DNA of 64,000 nucleotides from an uncultured Rhodospirillaceae bacterium (GTDB lineage Bacteria; Pseudomonadota; Alphaproteobacteria; Rhodospirillales; Magnetospirillaceae): NCBI GenBank assembly GCA_903901915.1, contig CAIUSV010000068.1, positions 62,001 through 126,000 on the forward strand. Direction: 5' to 3'. Of the stretch, positions 22,919 through 34,340 are shown piece by piece (position 1 is the stretch's first letter; every line of letters begins with the position of its first letter). A program made the position numbers and the translations under genes. Below the pieces are notes generated by a model. It made no database searches, was not told where the DNA came from, and saw nothing but the letters and a program-made list of their open reading frames with translations.

Positions 22919-24141
<1,223 letters not shown>

Positions 24142-24283
24142 CTGATTCCGAAGGGCGGTGGCTCGAAAGTCGGCCAATAAAGCACGAAGCGTCCCCCAAG
24201 GGGAGGGGTTTTCCTTCGCCCAAGGCAAGGGGGGAGTCGCATGAGGATTTGGCGCTTCGTCCCGAACCGGGCATGATGGCGCG

Positions 24284-25972
24284 ATGCAGAGCGATCAGAC
24301 GCCTTCCGGGGATGCCCCCGACGATACCGCCAGCCATCTCGACCTCATTGTCGAGATGACCGCCGCCTTCGGCCAATCGCACGACGTACGGGCGACCTTG
24401 CGCCTCGGCCTGGAGCGCATCGCCGAGCGGGTCGGCTCGGAGGCCGCCTCGCTGTTCCTGATCGATCCGGCAACCGGGGGGCTGCTCTGCCATGCCTGCG
24501 TCGGGGCGGTGGACATTTCCGGTCTGCGGCTGGCGCCGGGCACCGGCATCATCGGCCGTGCGGTCGACAGCAACACGGCGCAGCTGGTCAGAGACACCAA
24601 GGGCGATTCCGACTTCGCCGGGGTGGTGGACGACGCCACCGGTTTCGCCACCCGCTCGATTCTCTGCGCTCCACTGGCGGTGCGGACCGAGAAGCTGGGC
24701 GCGATCGAGCTGATCAACAAGAAGGGCGGCGGTGCCTTCACCCGGGCCGACAGCCGGCTGTTGCAGGCGTTGGCCTCGTCCTCGGCACTGGCGCTGTACA
24801 ACGCCCGACTGGTCGCCGCCATGGCCGAACAGGGCGCCCTGGCCCGCGAACTGACCCTGGCGTCGGAAATTCAGCGCGCCATGTTGCCGGGGCCGCAACC
24901 GGCGGACTCTCCGGTTCACGGCATCAATCTGGCGGCGCGCGGGGTATCGGGGGATTTTTACGAGATCATGCCGTTGGCCGGCGGCCGGGTGGCGTTCGCC
25001 ATCGGCGACGTTTCGGGCAAGGGCATGAACGCCTCGTTGCTGATGGCCAAGACCGCCAGCCTGTTCCGCTGCCTGGCCAAGCGCGAGGACGGCCCCGGCC
25101 GGTTGCTTGAAGCCATCGATTCCGAGCTGCACGAAACCGGGCTGGCCGGGATGTTCGTTACCATGGTGGCGGGAATTTTCGATCCCGCCGCCGGGCGGGT
25201 GGTGCTGGCCAATGCCGGGCACGAGCCGCCGCTGGTCCGGTCGGCCAAGGGGGGGTTCCGCGCCATCGAGGACGGCTCGCCGCCGCTGGGCATCGCCCCC
25301 GATCTGCTGGCCGGAGGCGTTCCGGAATGCGTGGTCGATCTCGATGGCGGCGCGCTTTATCTCTTCACCGATGGCCTGACCGAAGCCCGCGCCGCTAATG
25401 GCGGCATGCTGGGCAACGACGGCGTCAGGGGGCTGCTTGACGCATTCGCCGGCATGCCGGCGGCGGATCGTCTCGACGCGGTGGTGCGCTCGCTCGACGG
25501 TGTCGGCTCGCTGCGCGACGACGCCACCCTGTTGGTGGTCGAGGACCGCCGGGGGGCGGCCGACGGAACGTTCGAGCGGCGCTATCCGGCGCGGCCGGAG
25601 ACGCTGGCCGATATCCGCGCCTCGGTTTCCCGGGCGGCGCGGGAATTGGGCTGCGACGACGCCACGGCCTCCGACGTGGTTCTGGCGGTGGACGAAGCGT
25701 GCCAGAACGTCATCCGTCACGCCTACAAAGGGGGCGAGGGCGACGTCGTCGTCCATGTCGGCCGCGAGGATGATCTGTTGGTCATACGACTTATGGACTT
25801 CGCACCACCCTCGGATGTGGCTAAGATCCGTCCGAGGCGATTGGATGACGTGCGACCCGGCGGCCTGGGTACCCACCTGATGCGGTCGGTCATGGATCGC
25901 GTCGACTTCCTGCCGCCGCCGGCGGGAATCGGCAATCTGTTGCAGATGGTGAAGCGGATGGGGGAACCATGA
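24284..25972 (+). CDS. GAF / SpoIIE-type PP2C phosphatase / RsbW-like ATPase fusion
   Basis: A 562-residue partner-switching regulator. A GAF domain (about 18-185) is joined to a SpoIIE-type phosphatase (about 188-420) with the metal-binding sites GDFYE (223-227), GDVSGKG (241-247), TDGLTEA and RDDATLL. The C-terminal GHKL kinase-like ATPase (about 430-562) has its N-box at [15 protein letters not shown] and a G-box at GGLGTHLMR. No membrane segment is seen. Proteins of this type dephosphorylate STAS proteins, while RsbW-like domains phosphorylate them. Its stop overlaps the start of such a STAS gene, and an MCE lipid transporter follows. Regulation of that transporter is inferred. Confidence 0.88.
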
Positions 25973-26295
25973 ATCTGGACAGTCGCGAAATCGACGGGGC
26001 CGTAGTGGTGACGCTGGCCGGCGAGGTCGACCTCAGCCACAGTCCCGCCTTGCGCAAATCCCTGATGGATCTGATGCTGGCCCGTCGCGACGTGGCGGTC
26101 GATCTGGCCGGCGTCGCCTATATCGACAGTTCCGGCATCGCCGGCCTGGTCGAGGCCTATCAGATGTCGCGCAAGAACGGCACTCGCTTCGTCCTGGCGG
26201 CGATCAGCGATCCGGTGAAGCGGGTGCTGCAACTGGCGCGGCTTGATCGCGTCTTCGCCATTGCCGAAACGGTCGAGGCGGCATTGAAGGGATAG
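25969..26295 (+). CDS. STAS-domain protein (anti-sigma antagonist / MlaB-like)
   Basis: A single STAS domain of 108 residues: VVTLAGEVDLSHSPALRKSL, then VDLAGVAYIDSSGIAGLVEA. Ser55, in the DSSG motif, aligns with the phosphorylated serine of SpoIIAA and RsbV. The gene overlaps the phosphatase/ATPase gene by 4 nt (ATGA) and lies 9 nt before mlaE. Two readings are possible: an anti-sigma-factor antagonist, or the MlaB subunit that binds the MlaF ATPase in Mla complexes. The context fits both at once, which makes this gene the likely link between the two modules. Confidence 0.85.
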   Translation: MNLDSREIDGAVVVTLAGEVDLSHSPALRKSLMDLMLARRDVAVDLAGVAYIDSSGIAGLVEAYQMSRKNGTRFVLAAISDPVKRVLQLARLDRVFAIAETVEAALKG

Positions 26296-26304
26296 GGGCG
26301 CGAC

Positions 26305-27122
<818 letters not shown>

Positions 27123-27123
<1 letters not shown>

Positions 27124-27965
27124 TGACCCGCGGTTCGACAGGCTCCGCCGACAAAAGCATCGAGGTGATCGATCTGGTCACCCATTACGGCGATCGCCAG
27201 ATTCTGCACAACGTCAGTCTGGACGTGCGCAAGGGCGAGATCATGGTGATCATGGGCGGCTCCGGCTCGGGCAAGACCACCCTGCTCGCCCATCTTCTCG
27301 GCCTCAAGGCCCCGACCTCCGGAACGGTGCGGGTGCTGGGCAGCGAGTTGGGCCGGCTGGGGCCGATGGACTTGCAGAAGCTGCGCACCCGTACCGGGGT
27401 GGCGTTCCAGTCGGGCGCGCTGTTCAGTTCCATGAGCGTGGGCGACAACATCGCTTTGCCGCTGCGCGAGCATACCGACCTTGATCGCACCACCATCGGC
27501 ATCATGACCCGGCTCAAGCTGGAGGTGGTCAGCCTCGCCGGCTTCGAGGACCTGATGCCGGCCGAACTGTCGGGCGGCATGATCAAGCGCGCGGCGCTGG
27601 CCCGCGCCATCGTCATGGACCCCGAACTGCTGTTCTGTGACGAGCCCTCGGCCGGGCTTGACCCGGTGGTGGCGTCGTCCATCGACGACCTGATCCTGCG
27701 CCTCAGGGACGCCATGGGCATGAGCATCGTGGTGGTGACCCATGACCTCGATTCGACCTTCAAGATCGCCGACCGCATCTGCGTGCTCGACAAGGGCAAG
27801 GTGCTGGCGCTGGACTCCGTCGAGGCCATTCGCGCCAGCACCGACACGCGCATTCAGAATCTGCTCAACCGCCGCACCGAGGAAGCCGAGCCCGACGCCG
27901 ACGCCTATCTGCGCCGGCTGCTTGGCGAGGGTGCGCCCAGACAGGACGGGACCGGCCGGACATGA
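27123..27965 (+). CDS. mlaF: MlaF-type ABC transporter ATP-binding protein
   Basis: ATPase of the MCE transporter, 280 residues. It has Walker A in IMGGSGSGKTTLLAHLLG, a Q-loop region VAFQSGALFSSMSVGDNIAL (the LFSSMSV stretch is typical of MlaF/Ttg2A), signature LSGGMIKRAALARAI, Walker B LLFCDEPSAGLDP and the H-loop VVVTHDLDS. The ATG at 27123-27125 overlaps the mlaE stop, and the gene overlaps mlaD by 4 nt. It energises lipid movement between the membranes together with MlaE and MlaD. Confidence 0.94.
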
Positions 27966-28924
27966 GGGACTCCAAGATCAACTACGTCATGGTCGGCGGC
28001 TTCGTGCTGGCCATGTTGGTCACCCTGGTGGTGGTGGTGGCGCTGCTCACCGGGCGGACCGGCTCCACCGTTTCCTACTTCACCCACCTGTCCAACGTGA
28101 ACGGCATCAAGTACGGATCCAAGGTGACCTACGAGGGCTTCGCCGTCGGTCAGGTCGAGACCATCGTGCCGCTCAGGGTGGATGGCAAGACCGCCTTCCG
28201 ACTGGAATTGGCGGTACAGCACGATTGGCGCATACCCAAGGATTCGGTGGCCCGGGTGGCGTCGTCGGGTTTGCTTTCGGCGGTGACGGTGGATATCTCG
28301 GGCGGTGTCGCCTCCGAAATGTTGCCGCCCGGATCGGAGATCACCAGCGGGTCGGCCGCCAACATCTTCGCCGCCATGAACGATGTCGCCGGCCAGATCA
28401 CCGATCTTAACCAGAATGCCCTGAAGCCGCTGCTGATCAGCCTCAACAAGCAGGTCGGCACCTTGGGCGCCATCCTGGAGAAAAGCGCCCCCGAACTGAT
28501 GCACAATCTGGTGGCTGTGACCGCCGATCTGGCGGTCAAGACCCCGCGCATCACCGCCGATGTCGAGCGCATGACCGGAACCCTGGCCACCAAGATCGTC
28601 ACCGACGCCAATGCCGAGCGCATCCAGCATACCCTGATCAACGTCGCCCAACTGTCCGCCGGGCTTCAGGACAGCCGCGGCAAGGTCGATTCCATGCTGG
28701 CGGCGCTGGACAAGACCATGGCCGGCAATCGCGACAACATCGACCAGAGCCTCAAGGATCTGCGCCACACCTTGCAGGCGGTGGCGCGCACCATCGACTC
28801 GGTCACCTATAATCTCGACGGCACCACCCGCAACCTGAATGAATTCAGCCGCCAGATCCGCGACAATCCCGGTGTACTGATCGGTGGGACCAAGCGGGGC
28901 GAGGACGGGCCGGGTCGGAAGTAA
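27962..28924 (+). CDS. mlaD: MCE-domain lipid-binding protein MlaD
   Basis: Periplasmic, inner-membrane-anchored MCE protein of 320 residues. One N-terminal transmembrane helix (about 9-30: VMVGGFVLAMLVTLVVVVAL) is followed by an MCE domain (about 40-120: VNGIKYGSKVTYEGFAVGQV, then VASSGLLSAVTVDISGG). A long helical tail (about 140-300) follows. The tail is longer than in E. coli MlaD (183 residues) and resembles MCE proteins of alphaproteobacteria and PqiB/Mce types, whose tails can form a needle or tunnel. It overlaps mlaF by 4 nt. Confidence 0.92.
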   Translation: MRDSKINYVMVGGFVLAMLVTLVVVVALLTGRTGSTVSYFTHLSNVNGIKYGSKVTYEGFAVGQVETIVPLRVDGKTAFRLELAVQHDWRIPKDSVARVASSGLLSAVTVDISGGVASEMLPPGSEITSGSAANIFAAMNDVAGQITDLNQNALKPLLISLNKQVGTLGAILEKSAPELMHNLVAVTADLAVKTPRITADVERMTGTLATKIVTDANAERIQHTLINVAQLSAGLQDSRGKVDSMLAALDKTMAGNRDNIDQSLKDLRHTLQAVARTIDSVTYNLDGTTRNLNEFSRQIRDNPGVLIGGTKRGEDGPGRK

Positions 28925-28961
28925 CCATGGGGACACCAACGATTCAAACGGGGACGGGACG

Positions 28962-29576
28962 ATGAACGGGCGATTTCGTGGCACTCTTCTCGTGGCGGTG
29001 GTTGCGTTTGCCTTGTCGGGCTGCGTCGGGCCGGCGGCACCGCCCGACATGTTCTATCGGATCGAGCCGGCGCCGCCGGCCAGCCGCTTCGCCACGCCGC
29101 CGCTGCCCGGTGTGCTGGAGGTCGAGCGGCTGTCCGCCGACGGGGTGGTGGCCGAGCGGGCCTTGGCCTTCGCCGCCAAGGAGGGCGGCCCGCTGGGACA
29201 TTACAAGTACGAATACTGGAGCGAGCCGCCGGGGGTGCTGCTGCAAGACCGTCTGAGCCGCCATCTTGCCGCCGCCGGCGCCGCCGATCGGGTGGTCACG
29301 CCCGATATCGGCGTATTGGCCGACTGGACGTTGCGGGGCAAGGTGCGGCGGTTCGAGCAACTGGCGGCTACGGGACAGGTGGCGGTCGAACTTCAGCTCA
29401 GCGTGATCAGCCGTAGCGGCGAATTGGTGTTGCTGGAGAGCTACGGCGTCCAGGTGCCCGCCGGTTCCGACAAGATCGAGGCCGCCGCCGCCGCCATCGA
29501 ACGGGGCGTTTCCGAGGTTTTTACCCGGTTTGTCGCCGATCTCGGCCGGCTTCGGACGGGTAAGTCGGCGCAATGA
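28962..29576 (+). CDS. ABC-type transport auxiliary lipoprotein (PqiC-like)
   Basis: A 204-residue lipoprotein. Its signal peptide has a hydrophobic core ending in the lipobox LSGC, so Cys is the likely lipidated residue 22. The body has the layout of the ABC_trans_aux family: DMFYRIEP near the start, a YWSEPPGVLLQDRLSRHL helix, and a late block, VELQLSVISRSGELVLLESY. These proteins sit in the outer membrane and contact MCE complexes such as PqiABC. The gene is 37 bp after mlaD and overlaps the next gene by 4 nt. An apparent upstream extension lies in mlaD and is rejected. Confidence 0.85.
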   Translation: MNGRFRGTLLVAVVAFALSGCVGPAAPPDMFYRIEPAPPASRFATPPLPGVLEVERLSADGVVAERALAFAAKEGGPLGHYKYEYWSEPPGVLLQDRLSRHLAAAGAADRVVTPDIGVLADWTLRGKVRRFEQLAATGQVAVELQLSVISRSGELVLLESYGVQVPAGSDKIEAAAAAIERGVSEVFTRFVADLGRLRTGKSAQ

Positions 29577-30904
29577 GGAAGCCCCGGCGTTTCGCTTCCC
29601 AGGGGCGCAAGGGTCGGCCGGCGCCGTCGGCGCGCACGGTGGAACTGACCATCGAAGGCGTCGGCGCCCGGGGTGACGGCATCGCCACCCTGGACGGCGA
29701 GACCGTGTTCGTTCCCTTCACTGTCGGCGGCGATGTGGTGCTGGCGCGGATCGAGGGTCGGCGCGGCGACGGTCTGGTGGCGGCGCTGATCGAGGTGCAG
29801 GTCAGGGGGCCGGCGCGCGGCGAACCGCCTTGTGCCCATTTCGGCCGTTGCGGTGGTTGTACCCTGCAACACCTTGACGAAGCTCTCTACACCGATTGGA
29901 AACGCGATCTGCTGGTGGTGCAGTTGGGGCGGCATGGTCTGGGCGATGCCCCGGTGGGGCCGCTGGTGCGAGTGCCGCCGGCCAGCCGCCGCCGCGCCGC
30001 GTTCGCTTTTGCCCGCGACCGGGACGCGGTTTCGATCGGGTTCAACGCCCGGGCCAGCCATGCGGTGATCGACATCGAGCGTTGTCCGCTGCTGGAGCCC
30101 GCCCTGGCGCGCCTGCTGCCGGACTTGCGCGCGCTGCTGCCCGGTCTGGTGGCCAAGGGCGGTGGCGACGTGGTCGTCACCCTGACCGACGGCGGTCTGG
30201 ACGTGCTGGTGGAGGCCGAGGCCAAGCTCGATCTGGTTGATCGCGAGACGCTGGCGGCCTTCGCCGACGCCGCCGATCTGGCCCGGCTCTGCTGGCGCCG
30301 CTCCGGCGGCGGCTTCGCCGAACCCATCGCCCGGCGCCGGCCGGCGGACGTGCATTTCGCCGGTGTGGCGGTGGAGCCGTCGCCCGGCGCCTTCCTGCAA
30401 CCGACCCGGGGCGGTGAACTGGCCATCGTCGAGCGGGTGCTGGCGGCGGCGGCGCTGTCGCCGGGGCCGGCGGTGGATCTGTATGCCGGTTGCGGCAGTT
30501 TCACCGTGCCGCTGGCGCTGCACGGCCCGGTCCATGCCGTCGAGGGCGAGCAGGGGCCGCTGGCGGCACTGGACGCCGCCGCCCGGGCCGGCGGATTGCC
30601 CGTCACCACCGAGGTCCGCGATCTCGCTCGCCGCCCGCTGGCGCCCCACGAATTGGCCGCCTACCGGATGGCGGTGCTCGATCCACCCCGCGCCGGAGCC
30701 GTCGCCCAGGTCGTCGAGCTGGCGAAACCCGCCGCCGCCAAGGGCGGACCCGCCGTGGTGGCCATGGTGTCGTGCAATCCCGCCACCATGGCCCGCGATC
30801 TTAAAATACTGGTGGACGGCGGCTGGGAATTGACCGAAATCACCCCGATCGATCAATTCCCCTGGTCCGCCCATCTCGAGGCGGTAGCGGTGCTGCGCCG
30901 ATGA
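29573..30904 (+). CDS. Class I SAM-dependent 5-methyluridine RNA methyltransferase (RlmCD/RumA family)
   Basis: A 443-residue RNA m5U methyltransferase. It has an N-terminal TRAM domain (VELTIEGVGARGDGIA), a 4Fe-4S motif CAHFGRCGGCTLQH, and a central domain leading to GAFLQPTRGG. The SAM-binding region VDLYAGCGSFTVPLAL follows, then VLDPPRAGA and SCNPATMARDL with the catalytic Cys. It closes on ITPIDQFPWSAHLEAVAVL. The probable target is 23S rRNA, but the exact uridine is not predictable. It overlaps the lipoprotein gene before it and chpT after it by 4 nt each, so the mla, methyltransferase and chpT genes may share one transcript. Confidence 0.9.
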   Translation: MRKPRRFASQGRKGRPAPSARTVELTIEGVGARGDGIATLDGETVFVPFTVGGDVVLARIEGRRGDGLVAALIEVQVRGPARGEPPCAHFGRCGGCTLQHLDEALYTDWKRDLLVVQLGRHGLGDAPVGPLVRVPPASRRRAAFAFARDRDAVSIGFNARASHAVIDIERCPLLEPALARLLPDLRALLPGLVAKGGGDVVVTLTDGGLDVLVEAEAKLDLVDRETLAAFADAADLARLCWRRSGGGFAEPIARRRPADVHFAGVAVEPSPGAFLQPTRGGELAIVERVLAAAALSPGPAVDLYAGCGSFTVPLALHGPVHAVEGEQGPLAALDAAARAGGLPVTTEVRDLARRPLAPHELAAYRMAVLDPPRAGAVAQVVELAKPAAAKGGPAVVAMVSCNPATMARDLKILVDGGWELTEITPIDQFPWSAHLEAVAVLRR

Positions 30905-31512
30905 CTCATACCGAAGATGTAACCCTCGCCGAACTGCTGTGCGCCCGCCTGTGTCACGATCTGGCCGGGCCGGTGGGGGCGGCGGCGGCCGGTGCCGAAT
31001 TGCTGGAGGACGGGGGCGATGGCGAGACCGCCGCTCTGGTGGCGATCAGCGCCGCCGGCGCGGTGGCGCGACTGAAGTTCTTCCGCGCCGCCCTGGGGCC
31101 GTCGGGGTCGCCGCAGCCGGCGGCGGCGATGCGCGATCTGGCCGCCGCTTATCTGAAGTCGGCGATGGCCGGCGGTGGGATGGCGATGACGCTGAAATGG
31201 GACTGCCAGGCGGACCGGCTGGATGGCGACGTGGCGCGACTGGCGCTCAATCTGGTGCTGATCGCCCGTGACGCCCTGCCGCGTGGCGGCGAGGTGGCGG
31301 TGGCGATCGCCACAACCGGTGCGATTATCGTCGGGTTTCACGGCACCGGGGCGGGTTTGGGGGCCGAAGCCGCCGCCGCCCTGGCTCCCGGAGGCCAATC
31401 CGACGGCCCGCGCGGCGCCCAGGCGTGGCTGACACGTCGGCTGGCCGAGAAAATCGGTAGGAATATCAGGCTGGAGGTTGATTCGGCCGGCGGACGGATC
31501 AGCTCAGGATAA
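30901..31512 (+). CDS. chpT: Histidine phosphotransferase ChpT
   Basis: The protein that relays phosphate from the hybrid kinase CckA to CtrA and CpdR in alphaproteobacteria; 203 residues. The opening LAELLCARLCHDLAGPVGAA is the ChpT signature, with the phospho-accepting His19. A degenerate GHKL-like second domain follows (ARLALNLVLIARDALPRGGE; GAQAWLTRRLAEKIG) and lacks ATP-binding boxes, as expected. Together with ctrA at 4,754 this gives two of the three core phosphorelay parts in the window. It sits just ahead of the chemotaxis operon. Confidence 0.85.
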   Translation: MTHTEDVTLAELLCARLCHDLAGPVGAAAAGAELLEDGGDGETAALVAISAAGAVARLKFFRAALGPSGSPQPAAAMRDLAAAYLKSAMAGGGMAMTLKWDCQADRLDGDVARLALNLVLIARDALPRGGEVAVAIATTGAIIVGFHGTGAGLGAEAAAALAPGGQSDGPRGAQAWLTRRLAEKIGRNIRLEVDSAGGRISSG

Positions 31513-31667
31513 TAATCGTTACGAAGGCGGATTTATCGCCGAGAGGGTTCTTCTAAAGCGATACCGGCCGTGCTATTAGTCGTCGGTGCCTGTCCGGAGT
31601 GGATGGGGGGCAGGGAGTTTCGGCGGCATTCGCGGCCGGCGGAACAGCATTAGTACTGGAGTCGATC

Positions 31668-34340
31668 ATGGATGATCTCCTCAGCGAATTTCTGACCGAG
31701 ACCTCGGAAAGTCTTTCCACGCTCGACGTCGCGTTGGTGAACCTGGAGCAGAACCCGAACGATCCGCAGATCCTCGGCAACATCTTCCGGCTGGTTCATA
31801 CCATCAAGGGCACCTGCGGCTTCCTTGGTCTGCCGCGGCTGGAGCATGTCGCCCACGCCGGCGAGAACGTGCTGGGCAAGTTCCGTGACGGCGAGCTTGA
31901 AGTCACTCCGGATGCGGTCACCCTGATCCTCCAGTCCATCGACCGGATCAAGCTGATCCTGGGGCACCTCGAACAGAACGAGTGCGAGCCCGAGGGCAGC
32001 GACGACGACCTGATCGCCCGGCTCAACGCCATGGCCGATGGCCGCGCCGCCGGTGCACCGCCGCCGCCGCCGCCGCCGCCGATGCCGACCTTCGAGTCCG
32101 TTGCCTCGGCCCCGGCTCCGGCCCCGGCGGCTGAGCCGGCCGCCGCAGCGCCGCCGCCGCCCGAGCCTGAACCCGAGGAAGAGCCGGCGCCGGCGCCCAA
32201 GGCCAGCGTTCCCGCCACCACGGCGCCTCCCCCGGCGGTCGCCGCTCCGGCCGCCCCGGTTCCGGTGGGCGAGGCCAAGGAATCGGCGGTTGCCGCCCAG
32301 ACCATCCGCGTCAACGTCGAACTGCTCGAAAACCTGATGACGCTGGTGTCCGAACTGGTGTTGACCCGTAACCAGCTCCTCCAGATGGTGCGCGGCAAGG
32401 ACGACAGCGAGTTCGCCACGCCGTTGCAGCGGCTGTCGCATATCACCACCGACCTTCAGGAAGGGGTGATGAAGACGCGGATGCAGCCCATCGGCAACGC
32501 CTGGGCCAAGCTTCCGCGTATCGTTCGCGACCTGGCGCTGGAAATGAACAAGAAGATCGACCTCCAGATGCTGGGGGCCGAGACTGAACTGGACCGCCAG
32601 GTTCTGGAGCTGATCAAGGATCCGCTGACCCACATGGTGCGCAACTCGGCCGACCATGGCCTCGAGCCCACCGAGGAGCGCAAGCGCATCGGCAAGCCGG
32701 AAGTCGGCAAGGTGGTGCTGAACGCCTATCACGAGGGCGGCCACATCATCATCGAGATCTCGGACGATGGCCGCGGCCTCAACCTGGACCGCATCAAGCA
32801 GAAGGCCATCCAGAACGGAATCGCCACCGAATCCGAACTGGAGACCATGACGCCGCAGCAGATCTACCAGTATATCTTCAAGGCCGGCTTCTCCACCGCC
32901 GAGAAGGTCACCAGCGTGTCGGGGCGCGGCGTCGGCATGGACGTGGTGCGCACCAACATCGAAAAGATCGGCGGCACCGTCGAACTGAAAAGCCAGCCGG
33001 GCAAGGGCTCGTCGTTCATCATCAAGATCCCGCTGACCCTGGCCATCGTTTCGGCGCTGATCGTCGAGTGTGCCTCCGAGCGGTTCGCCATTCCGCAGAT
33101 CAGCGTGCTGGAACTGGTTCGGGTCACCGGTAATTCCGAGCACGGCATCGAGATGATCAACAACGCGCCGGTGCTGCGCCTGCGTGATCGCCTGCTGCCC
33201 CTGGTGTCGCTGAAGCGGCTGCTGAAGCTTGCCGATGGCGACGACGAGCAACAGGAGACCTTTATCGTCGTCACCCAGGTGGGGACCTACACCTTCGGCA
33301 TCATCGTCGACCGGGTGTTCGACACCGAGGAAATCGTGGTCAAGCCGGTGGCGCCGATCCTGCGTCACATCAGCATGTTCTCGGGCAACACCATCCTGGG
33401 CGACGGCTCGGTGATCATGATCCTCGACCCCAACGGCATCGCCGGGGCCACCGGCGAGTCCGGCCTGCTCGGCGGTACCCAGACCGCGGAGGCCCAGGTG
33501 ATGCGCGAAAGCCATGCCGACGCCAAGACCTCGCTGCTGGTGTTCCGCGCCGGCGGCGACGACCTCAAGGCGGTGCCGCTGGCCCTGGTCGCCCGTCTGG
33601 AGGAGATCGAGGTCACCGAGATCGAGCACAGTCACGGCAAGCCGATGGTCCAGTACCGCGGCCATCTCATGCCGCTGATCGGTATCGAGGGCGTTCTCAA
33701 TCTTCGCGACGAGGGCCGCCAGCCGGTTCTGGTGTTCTCGGACCAGGAACACACCATGGGCCTGGTGGTCGACGAGATCGTCGATATCGTCGAGGACCGC
33801 CTGAAGGTCGAGCTGTCCACCGACGGTGCCGGTATCATCGGCACCGCGGTGATCGCCGGCAAGGCCACCACCATCATCGACGCCGGCTATTACCTGCCGC
33901 AGGCGTTCGGCGACTGGTTCGGCCGCAACGAGAAGGAATATGGCAGTTCCGACGCCCACCCGCCGCGGGTGCTGCTGGTCGATGACTCGCCATTCTTCCG
34001 TAACCTGCTGACCCCCCTGCTGTCGGTGGCGGGTTATGAGGTGATCTCGGTGGAAAGCGCCGACCGGGCGTTGGCGCTGCGCGAGCAGGGCAACGAGTTC
34101 GACGCCATCATCAGCGACATCGAGATGCCGGGGATGAACGGGTTTGAATTCGCCAACGCGGTAAGGTCCGACGCTCGCTGGGCGCAGGTGCCCATGGTGG
34201 CATTGTCGTCCCACGCCACCGAGAAGGACTTTGAACGCGGACGTCAGGTCGGCTTCAACGATTACATCGCCAAGTTCGACCGTGATGCCCTGTTGCAGAC
34301 TCTGGCTTCGACCATCGCAGCCGCCAAAGGTGCCGCATGA
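31668..34340 (+). CDS. cheA: Chemotaxis histidine kinase CheA with C-terminal receiver domain
   Basis: Hybrid CheA of 890 residues. In order: Hpt domain with phospho-His44 (RLVHTIKGTCGF), a Pro/Ala/Glu-rich linker (about 125-205) in place of an obvious P2 domain, dimerisation helices (VNVELLENLMTLVSELVLTR), and a GHKL ATPase with N-box HMVRNSADHGLE, ISDDGRGLN and GRGVGMDVV. Two CheW-like SH3 regions follow (IVECASERFAIPQISVLELV, then KTSLLVFRAGGDDLKAVPLA), and last a receiver domain (VLLVDDSPFFRNLL; ISDIEMPGMNG). The ATG at 31668 has GGAG 7 nt upstream. It heads cheA-cheW-cheY-cheB-cheR. Confidence 0.95.
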   Translation: MDDLLSEFLTETSESLSTLDVALVNLEQNPNDPQILGNIFRLVHTIKGTCGFLGLPRLEHVAHAGENVLGKFRDGELEVTPDAVTLILQSIDRIKLILGHLEQNECEPEGSDDDLIARLNAMADGRAAGAPPPPPPPPMPTFESVASAPAPAPAAEPAAAAPPPPEPEPEEEPAPAPKASVPATTAPPPAVAAPAAPVPVGEAKESAVAAQTIRVNVELLENLMTLVSELVLTRNQLLQMVRGKDDSEFATPLQRLSHITTDLQEGVMKTRMQPIGNAWAKLPRIVRDLALEMNKKIDLQMLGAETELDRQVLELIKDPLTHMVRNSADHGLEPTEERKRIGKPEVGKVVLNAYHEGGHIIIEISDDGRGLNLDRIKQKAIQNGIATESELETMTPQQIYQYIFKAGFSTAEKVTSVSGRGVGMDVVRTNIEKIGGTVELKSQPGKGSSFIIKIPLTLAIVSALIVECASERFAIPQISVLELVRVTGNSEHGIEMINNAPVLRLRDRLLPLVSLKRLLKLADGDDEQQETFIVVTQVGTYTFGIIVDRVFDTEEIVVKPVAPILRHISMFSGNTILGDGSVIMILDPNGIAGATGESGLLGGTQTAEAQVMRESHADAKTSLLVFRAGGDDLKAVPLALVARLEEIEVTEIEHSHGKPMVQYRGHLMPLIGIEGVLNLRDEGRQPVLVFSDQEHTMGLVVDEIVDIVEDRLKVELSTDGAGIIGTAVIAGKATTIIDAGYYLPQAFGDWFGRNEKEYGSSDAHPPRVLLVDDSPFFRNLLTPLLSVAGYEVISVESADRALALREQGNEFDAIISDIEMPGMNGFEFANAVRSDARWAQVPMVALSSHATEKDFERGRQVGFNDYIAKFDRDALLQTLASTIAAAKGAA

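Follow-up and report, generated by a model that had tools for sequence, protein, structure and literature searches.

The window analysed here is a stretch of 64,000 nucleotides from an uncultured Rhodospirillaceae bacterium (assembly GCA_903901915.1, contig CAIUSV010000068.1, positions 62,001 to 126,000). At positions 24284-29576 it holds six genes in which a phosphatase-kinase fusion and a STAS protein precede the subunits of an Mla-type lipid transporter. Judged from sequence, this operon probably encodes a partner-switching module that acts on an MCE-type lipid ABC transporter and not on a sigma factor. Many bacteria appear to carry such a kinase-phosphatase-adaptor on/off switch within a lipid-transport gene cluster.

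The six genes are confirmed by open reading frames and Pfam domains as a GAF/PP2C/GHKL fusion, a STAS protein, MlaE, MlaF, a long MlaD and a PqiC-like lipoprotein, in agreement with the first-pass annotation of this DNA. The features are listed below.

24284..25972, + strand: GAF-SpoIIE/PP2C-HATPase_c_2 fusion with an RsbW-like kinase domain, 562 amino acids (GAF_2 4e-13, SpoIIE 5.8e-42, HATPase_c_2 1.9e-26)
24377..24796, + strand: GAF sensor domain, fusion residues 32-171 (Pfam); other sensor domains stand there in some relatives
25969..26295, + strand: RsbV/SpoIIAA-type STAS protein, 108 amino acids (STAS 1.8e-22), predicted phospho-acceptor Ser54 (DSSG)
26305..27123, + strand: mlaE permease, 272 amino acids (Pfam MlaE 1.3e-64), with no STAS domain fused to it as in Mpc-type MlaE
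27123..27965, + strand: mlaF ATPase, 280 amino acids (Pfam ABC_tran), C-terminal hook Y262-L266-L267
27962..28924, + strand: mlaD, 320 amino acids, MCE domain and long C-terminal region (Pfam MlaD 4.5e-13)
28962..29576, + strand: ABC-type transport auxiliary lipoprotein, PqiC/MpcA-like (ABC_trans_aux 6.7e-16; lipobox LSGC by eye)

The junctions are as annotated before: the fusion and STAS genes overlap by 4 nucleotides, mlaE and mlaF by 1 and mlaF and mlaD by 4, with gaps of 9 nucleotides between STAS and mlaE and of 37 between mlaD and the lipoprotein gene, whose start is most likely the ATG at 28962.

Recurrence of the gene arrangement

Genome contigs were scanned with the MlaE alignment alone, and the best 80 loci are the base of all counts out of 80. 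At 62 of them PP2C, kinase and STAS genes lie within 4 kb upstream of mlaE on the same strand, a linkage that exceeds chance. The module-bearing loci span Alpha- and Gammaproteobacteria, Myxococcota, Nitrospirota and Acidobacteriota. Phosphatase and kinase form a single open reading frame in 43 of the 62 complete loci and separate ones in 19, and the auxiliary lipoprotein is recognised in 62 of the 80. The remaining 18 loci have kinase and STAS (7), STAS only (7) or none of the three (4); six incomplete loci (L060, L079, L082, L098, L113, L115) have about 1 kb or less of upstream sequence. Eight loci lack both enzymes despite at least 1.5 kb of upstream sequence, six with STAS only (L087, L100-L104) and two with none of the three (L077, L109). 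In seven of these eight cases the genome encodes a GAF-PP2C-kinase protein at another locus; for L077 and L109 this unlinked fusion is adjoined 3' by a STAS gene.

A second survey covered 289 genomes of the class. An MlaE match is present in 267 of these, and MlaE of the window type (at least 49% identity and at least 233 bits) in 11 only; the next-best match in the class reaches 178 bits, and those listed after the 11 are mostly longer proteins. Among named organisms, Phaeospirillum and Paramagnetospirillum have the closest relatives of the window MlaE, at 88-90% identity, so that the window probably stems from this group. All ten other window-type loci have PP2C, kinase and STAS genes beside the mla genes, upstream of mlaE and on the same strand in nine cases and, at L031, beyond the 3' end of the operon and on the opposite strand. 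The PP2C-STAS-mlaE order, which the first-pass annotation had proposed to look for in other genomes, is thus not unique to this one (62 of 80 loci, and all ten others in the class survey). When the fusion protein serves as query, 56 of the 289 genomes match at 1e-20; a fusion-like match of at least 182 bits occurs in all 11 genomes with window-type MlaE, as against 4 of the 278 others.

A second linkage of a kinase with MCE genes is found in another lineage. At L239 (6800-10925), L240 (2675-6985) and L241 (64-4332) the last genes of a divergent mlaE...mlaD operon encode an RsbW-like kinase and a STAS protein carrying DSAG. It has a TPR-like lipoprotein gene after mlaD and a ubiD-like gene after the STAS gene (both named by eye), and a short open reading frame (215-218 amino acids) occupies the mlaF position in L240 and L241. 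L242 is similar, without the kinase. If confirmed, L239-L241 would be an independent association of an RsbW-like kinase with an MCE operon.

Switch proteins and transporter

The catalytic residues of both enzymes are preserved. In the family alignment D224, D242 and D363 are invariant in 72 of 72 sequences and D412 and D413 in 70 of 70; these are taken here to be the metal-binding aspartates of PP2C. Kinase residues E471, N475, D505, G527 and G529 are invariant in all 80 aligned sequences, E471 and N475 presumably being the E..N of the GHKL N-box and G527 and G529 the ATP-lid glycines. The kinase domain matches RsbW models with scores below their cut-offs. An AlphaFold2 model of the fusion has a mean predicted local distance difference test score (pLDDT) of 87 and a predicted template modelling score (pTM) of 0.54. 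Its best PDB match is the RsbU-RsbW domain pair of Rv1364c, with the domains arranged differently (root-mean-square deviation 13.9).

The sensor domain varies by lineage. In a scan of ten proteins, picked mainly for having no GAF match, a receiver domain was recognised at L071, HDOD at L080, L083 and L088, HAMP at L110 and none at L029, while the window protein has GAF. Exchange of the input domain while the output stays constant is the pattern expected of a signalling switch. In the GAF domain N145 and K146 are at least 90% conserved and F152 and D156 invariant among 34 fusions; the four residues presumably represent a partial NKFD(E) motif of cyclic-nucleotide-binding GAF domains. The fold matches of the domain include the Lcd1 GAF domain with cyclic AMP (cAMP) and, together with the partial motif, hint at a cyclic nucleotide as candidate ligand. 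If the GAF domain binds one, lipid transport would come under second-messenger control.

The STAS protein retains the intact acceptor serine of the DSSG motif that had been pointed out before, although its number is 54 and not 55: Ser54, the first serine of the motif, aligns with SpoIIAA chain position 58 and with Thr52 of E. coli MlaB. D53, S54 and S55 are invariant in 87 of 87 aligned sequences, and DSS is present in 88 of 88 STAS sequences, followed by G in 86. The protein scores 85.4 bits against the anti-anti-sigma superfamily model ant_ant_sig (cut-off 53.45) and 28.8 bits against the MlaB family model mlaB_1 (NF033618), whose curated cut-off is 90. The nearest folds of its AlphaFold2 model (pLDDT 95) are RsbV in the RsbV/RsbW complex and then other anti-sigma antagonists, MlaB chains ranking only from 37th. 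The model has a fifth strand (E97-99) and a last helix (H102-107), unlike the short MlaB type, which lacks both according to the available portion of PMC7367683. By sequence and predicted fold the STAS protein is RsbV-like and outside the MlaB family. The earlier proposal that it serves both as phospho-switch and as MlaB-like subunit fits these data in its two roles, and not as a statement of MlaB family membership. No separate mlaB was recognised in the window's genome: the narrow mlaB_1 model gives no match at E at or below 1e-6, and the nine other STAS loci of this genome show no mlaE, mlaF or mlaD within about 1.5 kb.

The transporter genes belong to the MCE/Mla type, since MlaE, ABC_tran and MlaD all match above Pfam cut-offs in one operon. 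In NCBIfam the ATPase scores best against MlaF, though under the cut-off of that model, and scores against canonical models are low (perm_MlaE_1 144.7/315 bits, PRK11831 204.8/441, OM_asym_MlaD 63.3/135). The operon differs from canonical MlaFEDCB in its order, STAS-E-F-D-auxiliary, and in its MlaD of 320 amino acids, and none of its six proteins matches MlaC in Pfam. Nor is a STAS domain fused to the N-terminus of MlaE, the trait of Mpc (Mla-Pqi chimeric) systems: no STAS match was obtained for the protein, whose MlaE domain starts at residue 58 of 272. Conversely, all 22 of the next-best MlaE types examined have by eye, ahead of MlaE, a STAS-like region that carries a D-(S/T) motif. Such fused types give an independent reason to place a STAS domain in the MlaE-MlaF complex.

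E. coli MlaB contacts MlaF through its helical face, near the centre of which Thr52 lies, and a C-terminal extension of MlaF (Tyr261, Leu265, Leu266) sits between the two proteins, as described in the portion of the structural report available (PMC7367683). The window MlaF has Y262, L266 and L267 at the aligned positions. The hook was scored as Y or F, one of L/I/M/V/A/H/N/D, two residues, and L or F. Among 91 MlaF rows of the group it is present in 82, absent in 4 and cut in 5; after removal of L112, where the best MlaF match is another gene, it is present in 82 of 85 assessable rows, those of L077 and L109 having the F form. In fused-STAS systems the hook is absent from 13 of 13 readable MlaF sequences out of 14: L187 and L034, scored as cut, have tails readable by eye without a hook, and L185 is unreadable. 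These controls come from the upper part of the MlaE match list and are not a random sample (STAS was examined at 20 fused-type loci, and MlaF at 12 of these and at L033 and L034).

The window's genome also has a second, canonical-type mlaE-mlaF pair (C66:8000-21000; L001, L032), with no STAS gene on the 13 kb read. By eye the tail of this MlaF ends before the hook, its pattern score being a match in the core (FVDQF).

Proposed mechanism and competing explanations

The following scheme is proposed. The unphosphorylated STAS protein would bind MlaF at the MlaB site, and the MlaF-MlaE-MlaD complex would depend on it for assembly and activity. The RsbW-like kinase domain would bind the same STAS face and phosphorylate Ser54, so that STAS leaves MlaF and transport is turned off, and the SpoIIE-type PP2C domain of the same protein would strip the phosphate and restore transport. 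The GAF domain (receiver, HDOD or HAMP in some relatives) would set the balance between phosphatase and kinase, and an intracellular signal could thereby start or stop lipid traffic between membranes. As judged from the E. coli MlaFB structure and from known SpoIIAA/RsbV structures, kinase and MlaF would share one STAS face, and their binding should therefore be mutually exclusive. The T52E substitution in E. coli MlaB weakens MlaF binding in pull-downs, in the text available of PMC7367683.

We infer the phosphorylation by the kinase, the competition, its direction and the ligand; the sequence supports the composition and order of the operon, its predicted catalytic residues and acceptor, the MlaF hook, the sensor exchange and the lack of a detectable sigma-70 gene nearby. 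Extended to several phyla, the proposal is that MCE transporter assembly and activity are gated by phosphorylation of a STAS serine, with kinase and MlaF competing for one STAS face and interchangeable sensors (GAF, receiver, HDOD, HAMP) feeding the phosphatase-kinase; this general form may well be correct. The interpretation in the first-pass annotation, that phosphorylation of the STAS protein switches phospholipid transport, is likewise supported as far as genome data reach, and none of the three contrary findings named there has emerged (a gene order unique to this genome, a separate mlaB, or a STAS protein binding an anti-sigma factor and not MlaF).

A number of observations weigh against the proposed switch. 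Kinase and STAS genes without an adjacent PP2C gene occur at L042, L061, L111 and L114, and the genome of L087 (G425) has a STAS-mlaE pair with the motif DSSA and no fusion match at 1e-15. Four genomes have a fusion-like protein without window-type MlaE. In G148 there is a divergent kinase-STAS-mlaE-mlaF-mlaD-auxiliary operon (L237 1377-5396) with a very divergent MlaE, and a PP2C protein lies about 10 kb away on the same contig (L236 4712-6472). G112, an 81% complete genome, has fusion and STAS with no mlaE or mlaD in the 9 kb of sequence read; the contig of G155 encodes a PP2C protein but neither kinase nor STAS, and G007 shows a contig edge only. In the MlaE tree (76 rows, 33 chosen of the 80 loci and 43 others) the module-bearing MlaE proteins are not one clade: three acidobacterial rows fall with fused and canonical types, with weak support (84/53). 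A single origin is therefore not claimed. The distance matrices are correlated (r 0.43-0.80, as against a maximum of 0.27 over 500 shuffles, for the 55 of 90 loci with all six proteins present), a similarity which is a mark of co-inheritance only and not of contact.

Further points of this kind concern the acceptor and the hook. DSS is retained in STAS-only loci without a local kinase, where loss of Ser54 would be expected, although most of these genomes carry an unlinked fusion, which weakens the comparison. Ser or Thr at the acceptor position is also common in STAS proteins outside the group: the fused-type STAS-like regions have Thr in 17 of 22 and Ser in 5 of 22 (by eye, without a domain search), and free-standing MlaB-like matches are mixed, with many Ser (29 matches to the narrow mlaB_1 model, several of them not beside mlaE). 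DSS is thus weak evidence when taken alone, and the serine is not diagnostic. The hook is absent from the MlaF of L030, L031 and L111 although STAS is present, and canonical systems with an MlaB-like gene show it in just 5 of 8 by the same pattern. In E. coli, T52A keeps MlaB bound and yet abolishes ATPase activity, in the parts accessible of PMC7367683 and PMC5016091; the hydroxyl may therefore serve catalysis and not phosphorylation.

An ordinary anti-sigma switch would explain the RsbV-like sequence and fold of the STAS protein and the sub-cut-off matches of the kinase to RsbW models. The STAS protein would then be an anti-anti-sigma factor and the kinase would hold a sigma factor encoded elsewhere, with the mla genes merely co-transcribed targets or neighbours. 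This is unlikely. The same mla genes accompany the module across phyla, and a search of 91 loci (1.1 Mb) with the genome's three sigma-70-like proteins as queries, which did not test extracytoplasmic function (ECF) types, detected no sigma-70-like gene; as a control, the three queries do find each other. No SigB/F/G-type sigma factor reaches the cut-off in the window's genome, and the three matches below it are the places from which the sigma-70-like queries came. Moreover, this MlaE lacks a STAS domain, while those examined among the next-best types have a STAS-like region in cis, and the MlaF hook is conserved.

It is quite improbable that the STAS protein is a constitutive MlaB-like assembly subunit free of signal switching, the enzymes only blocking unassembled STAS or acting on another STAS protein. 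E. coli MlaB is indeed an assembly factor and T52A is not a simple phospho-null, in the available text of PMC7367683 and PMC5016091, and some members have no local kinase or phosphatase. Against this stand the swapping of the sensor between lineages, the intact kinase and phosphatase sites, and the fusion-like proteins encoded elsewhere in seven of the eight genomes without local enzymes.

Very improbable is the reverse sign, in which MlaF is activated by phospho-STAS, or in which the kinase domain is itself the direct partner of MlaF or the transporter: given the loss of ATPase activity in T52A with MlaB still bound, the form with a modified side chain might in principle be the active one, but T52E lowers MlaF binding in pull-downs, and unphosphorylated STAS is the binding form in the partner switches covered by the portion available of PMC8256260.

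Related systems and neighbouring genes

The closest transport systems share parts of the arrangement. E. coli MlaFEDB likewise has a STAS protein, MlaE, a hooked MlaF and MlaD, with the phospho-site position at the STAS-MlaF interface in the part seen of PMC7367683, whereas its mlaFEDCB operon is without a kinase or phosphatase gene. The window operon differs further by the lack of MlaC among its six proteins, the long MlaD and the RsbV-like STAS protein with its additional strand and helix. Mpc has a similar MlaE-MlaF-long MlaD-PqiC-like lipoprotein operon; its STAS is fused in cis to MlaE, and no PP2C or kinase is described in the text available (PMC12436622). The hook, present in the window MlaF, is absent from the 13 readable fused-type MlaF relatives, Mpc itself not being among these.

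RsbU-RsbW-RsbV and SpoIIE-SpoIIAB-SpoIIAA resemble the window module in having a PP2C, a GHKL kinase and a phosphorylatable STAS protein, and RsbU-RsbW of Rv1364c, the fold match of the fusion, joins phosphatase and kinase in one chain. They differ from it in their output, since no sigma factor was found here and the predicted output is an ABC ATPase. Partner switches without a sigma factor are known, namely HsbR-HsbA-HsbD and SiaABCD in Pseudomonas and SypE-SypA in Vibrio fischeri, in which a small acceptor is controlled by phosphatase and kinase. They act on a diguanylate cyclase or a biofilm output, and not on a transporter.

Phosphorylation of MlaB Thr52 was hypothesised and left as an open question by Thong et al. 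2016 (PMC5016091) and Kolich et al. 2020 (PMC7367683), in the portions available of both papers. The finding of kinase and phosphatase genes beside the STAS gene in dozens of genomes makes this question directly testable, the substrate, the enzymes and the transporter all being defined. No report of a kinase or phosphatase acting on MlaB, or of a PP2C-STAS-mlaE operon, was recognised in a literature search in which subscription journals and preprints were thinly covered. As far as that search goes, the operon would be the first case of an Mla-type transporter switched by phosphorylation, and would represent a partner switch with an ABC ATPase as output. The novelty can be seen from either side: partner switching would gain a new type of output, or an MCE transporter a new type of control. 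If true, lipid traffic in the Gram-negative envelope would be under direct post-translational control, and a transporter would join the outputs of partner switching.

Some minor observations accompany these results. The window's genome has a second PP2C and HATPase_c_2 protein followed by a STAS gene (C12:24934-28233; L007, L165); this partner-switch module is separate from that of the window, and no mla genes lie on the stretch read. At L025 two tandem STAS genes (1276-1608 and 1659-2009), both with DSSG, stand between kinase and mlaE. The MlaE proteins of L057 (titled Candidatus Marinimicrobia) and of L077 and L109 (Gammaproteobacteria) are placed among mostly alphaproteobacterial rows of the tree, which points to mislabelled bins or horizontal transfer. 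A promoter consensus scan of 24000-31000 gave no sigma-70-like sites and is uninformative at the high G+C content of this genome. On the 3' side of the operon (window 29573-34340; names by eye), an rRNA-methyltransferase-like gene overlaps the lipoprotein gene by 4 nucleotides and is itself overlapped by 4 nucleotides by a small ChpT-like gene, and a CheA-like gene comes next.

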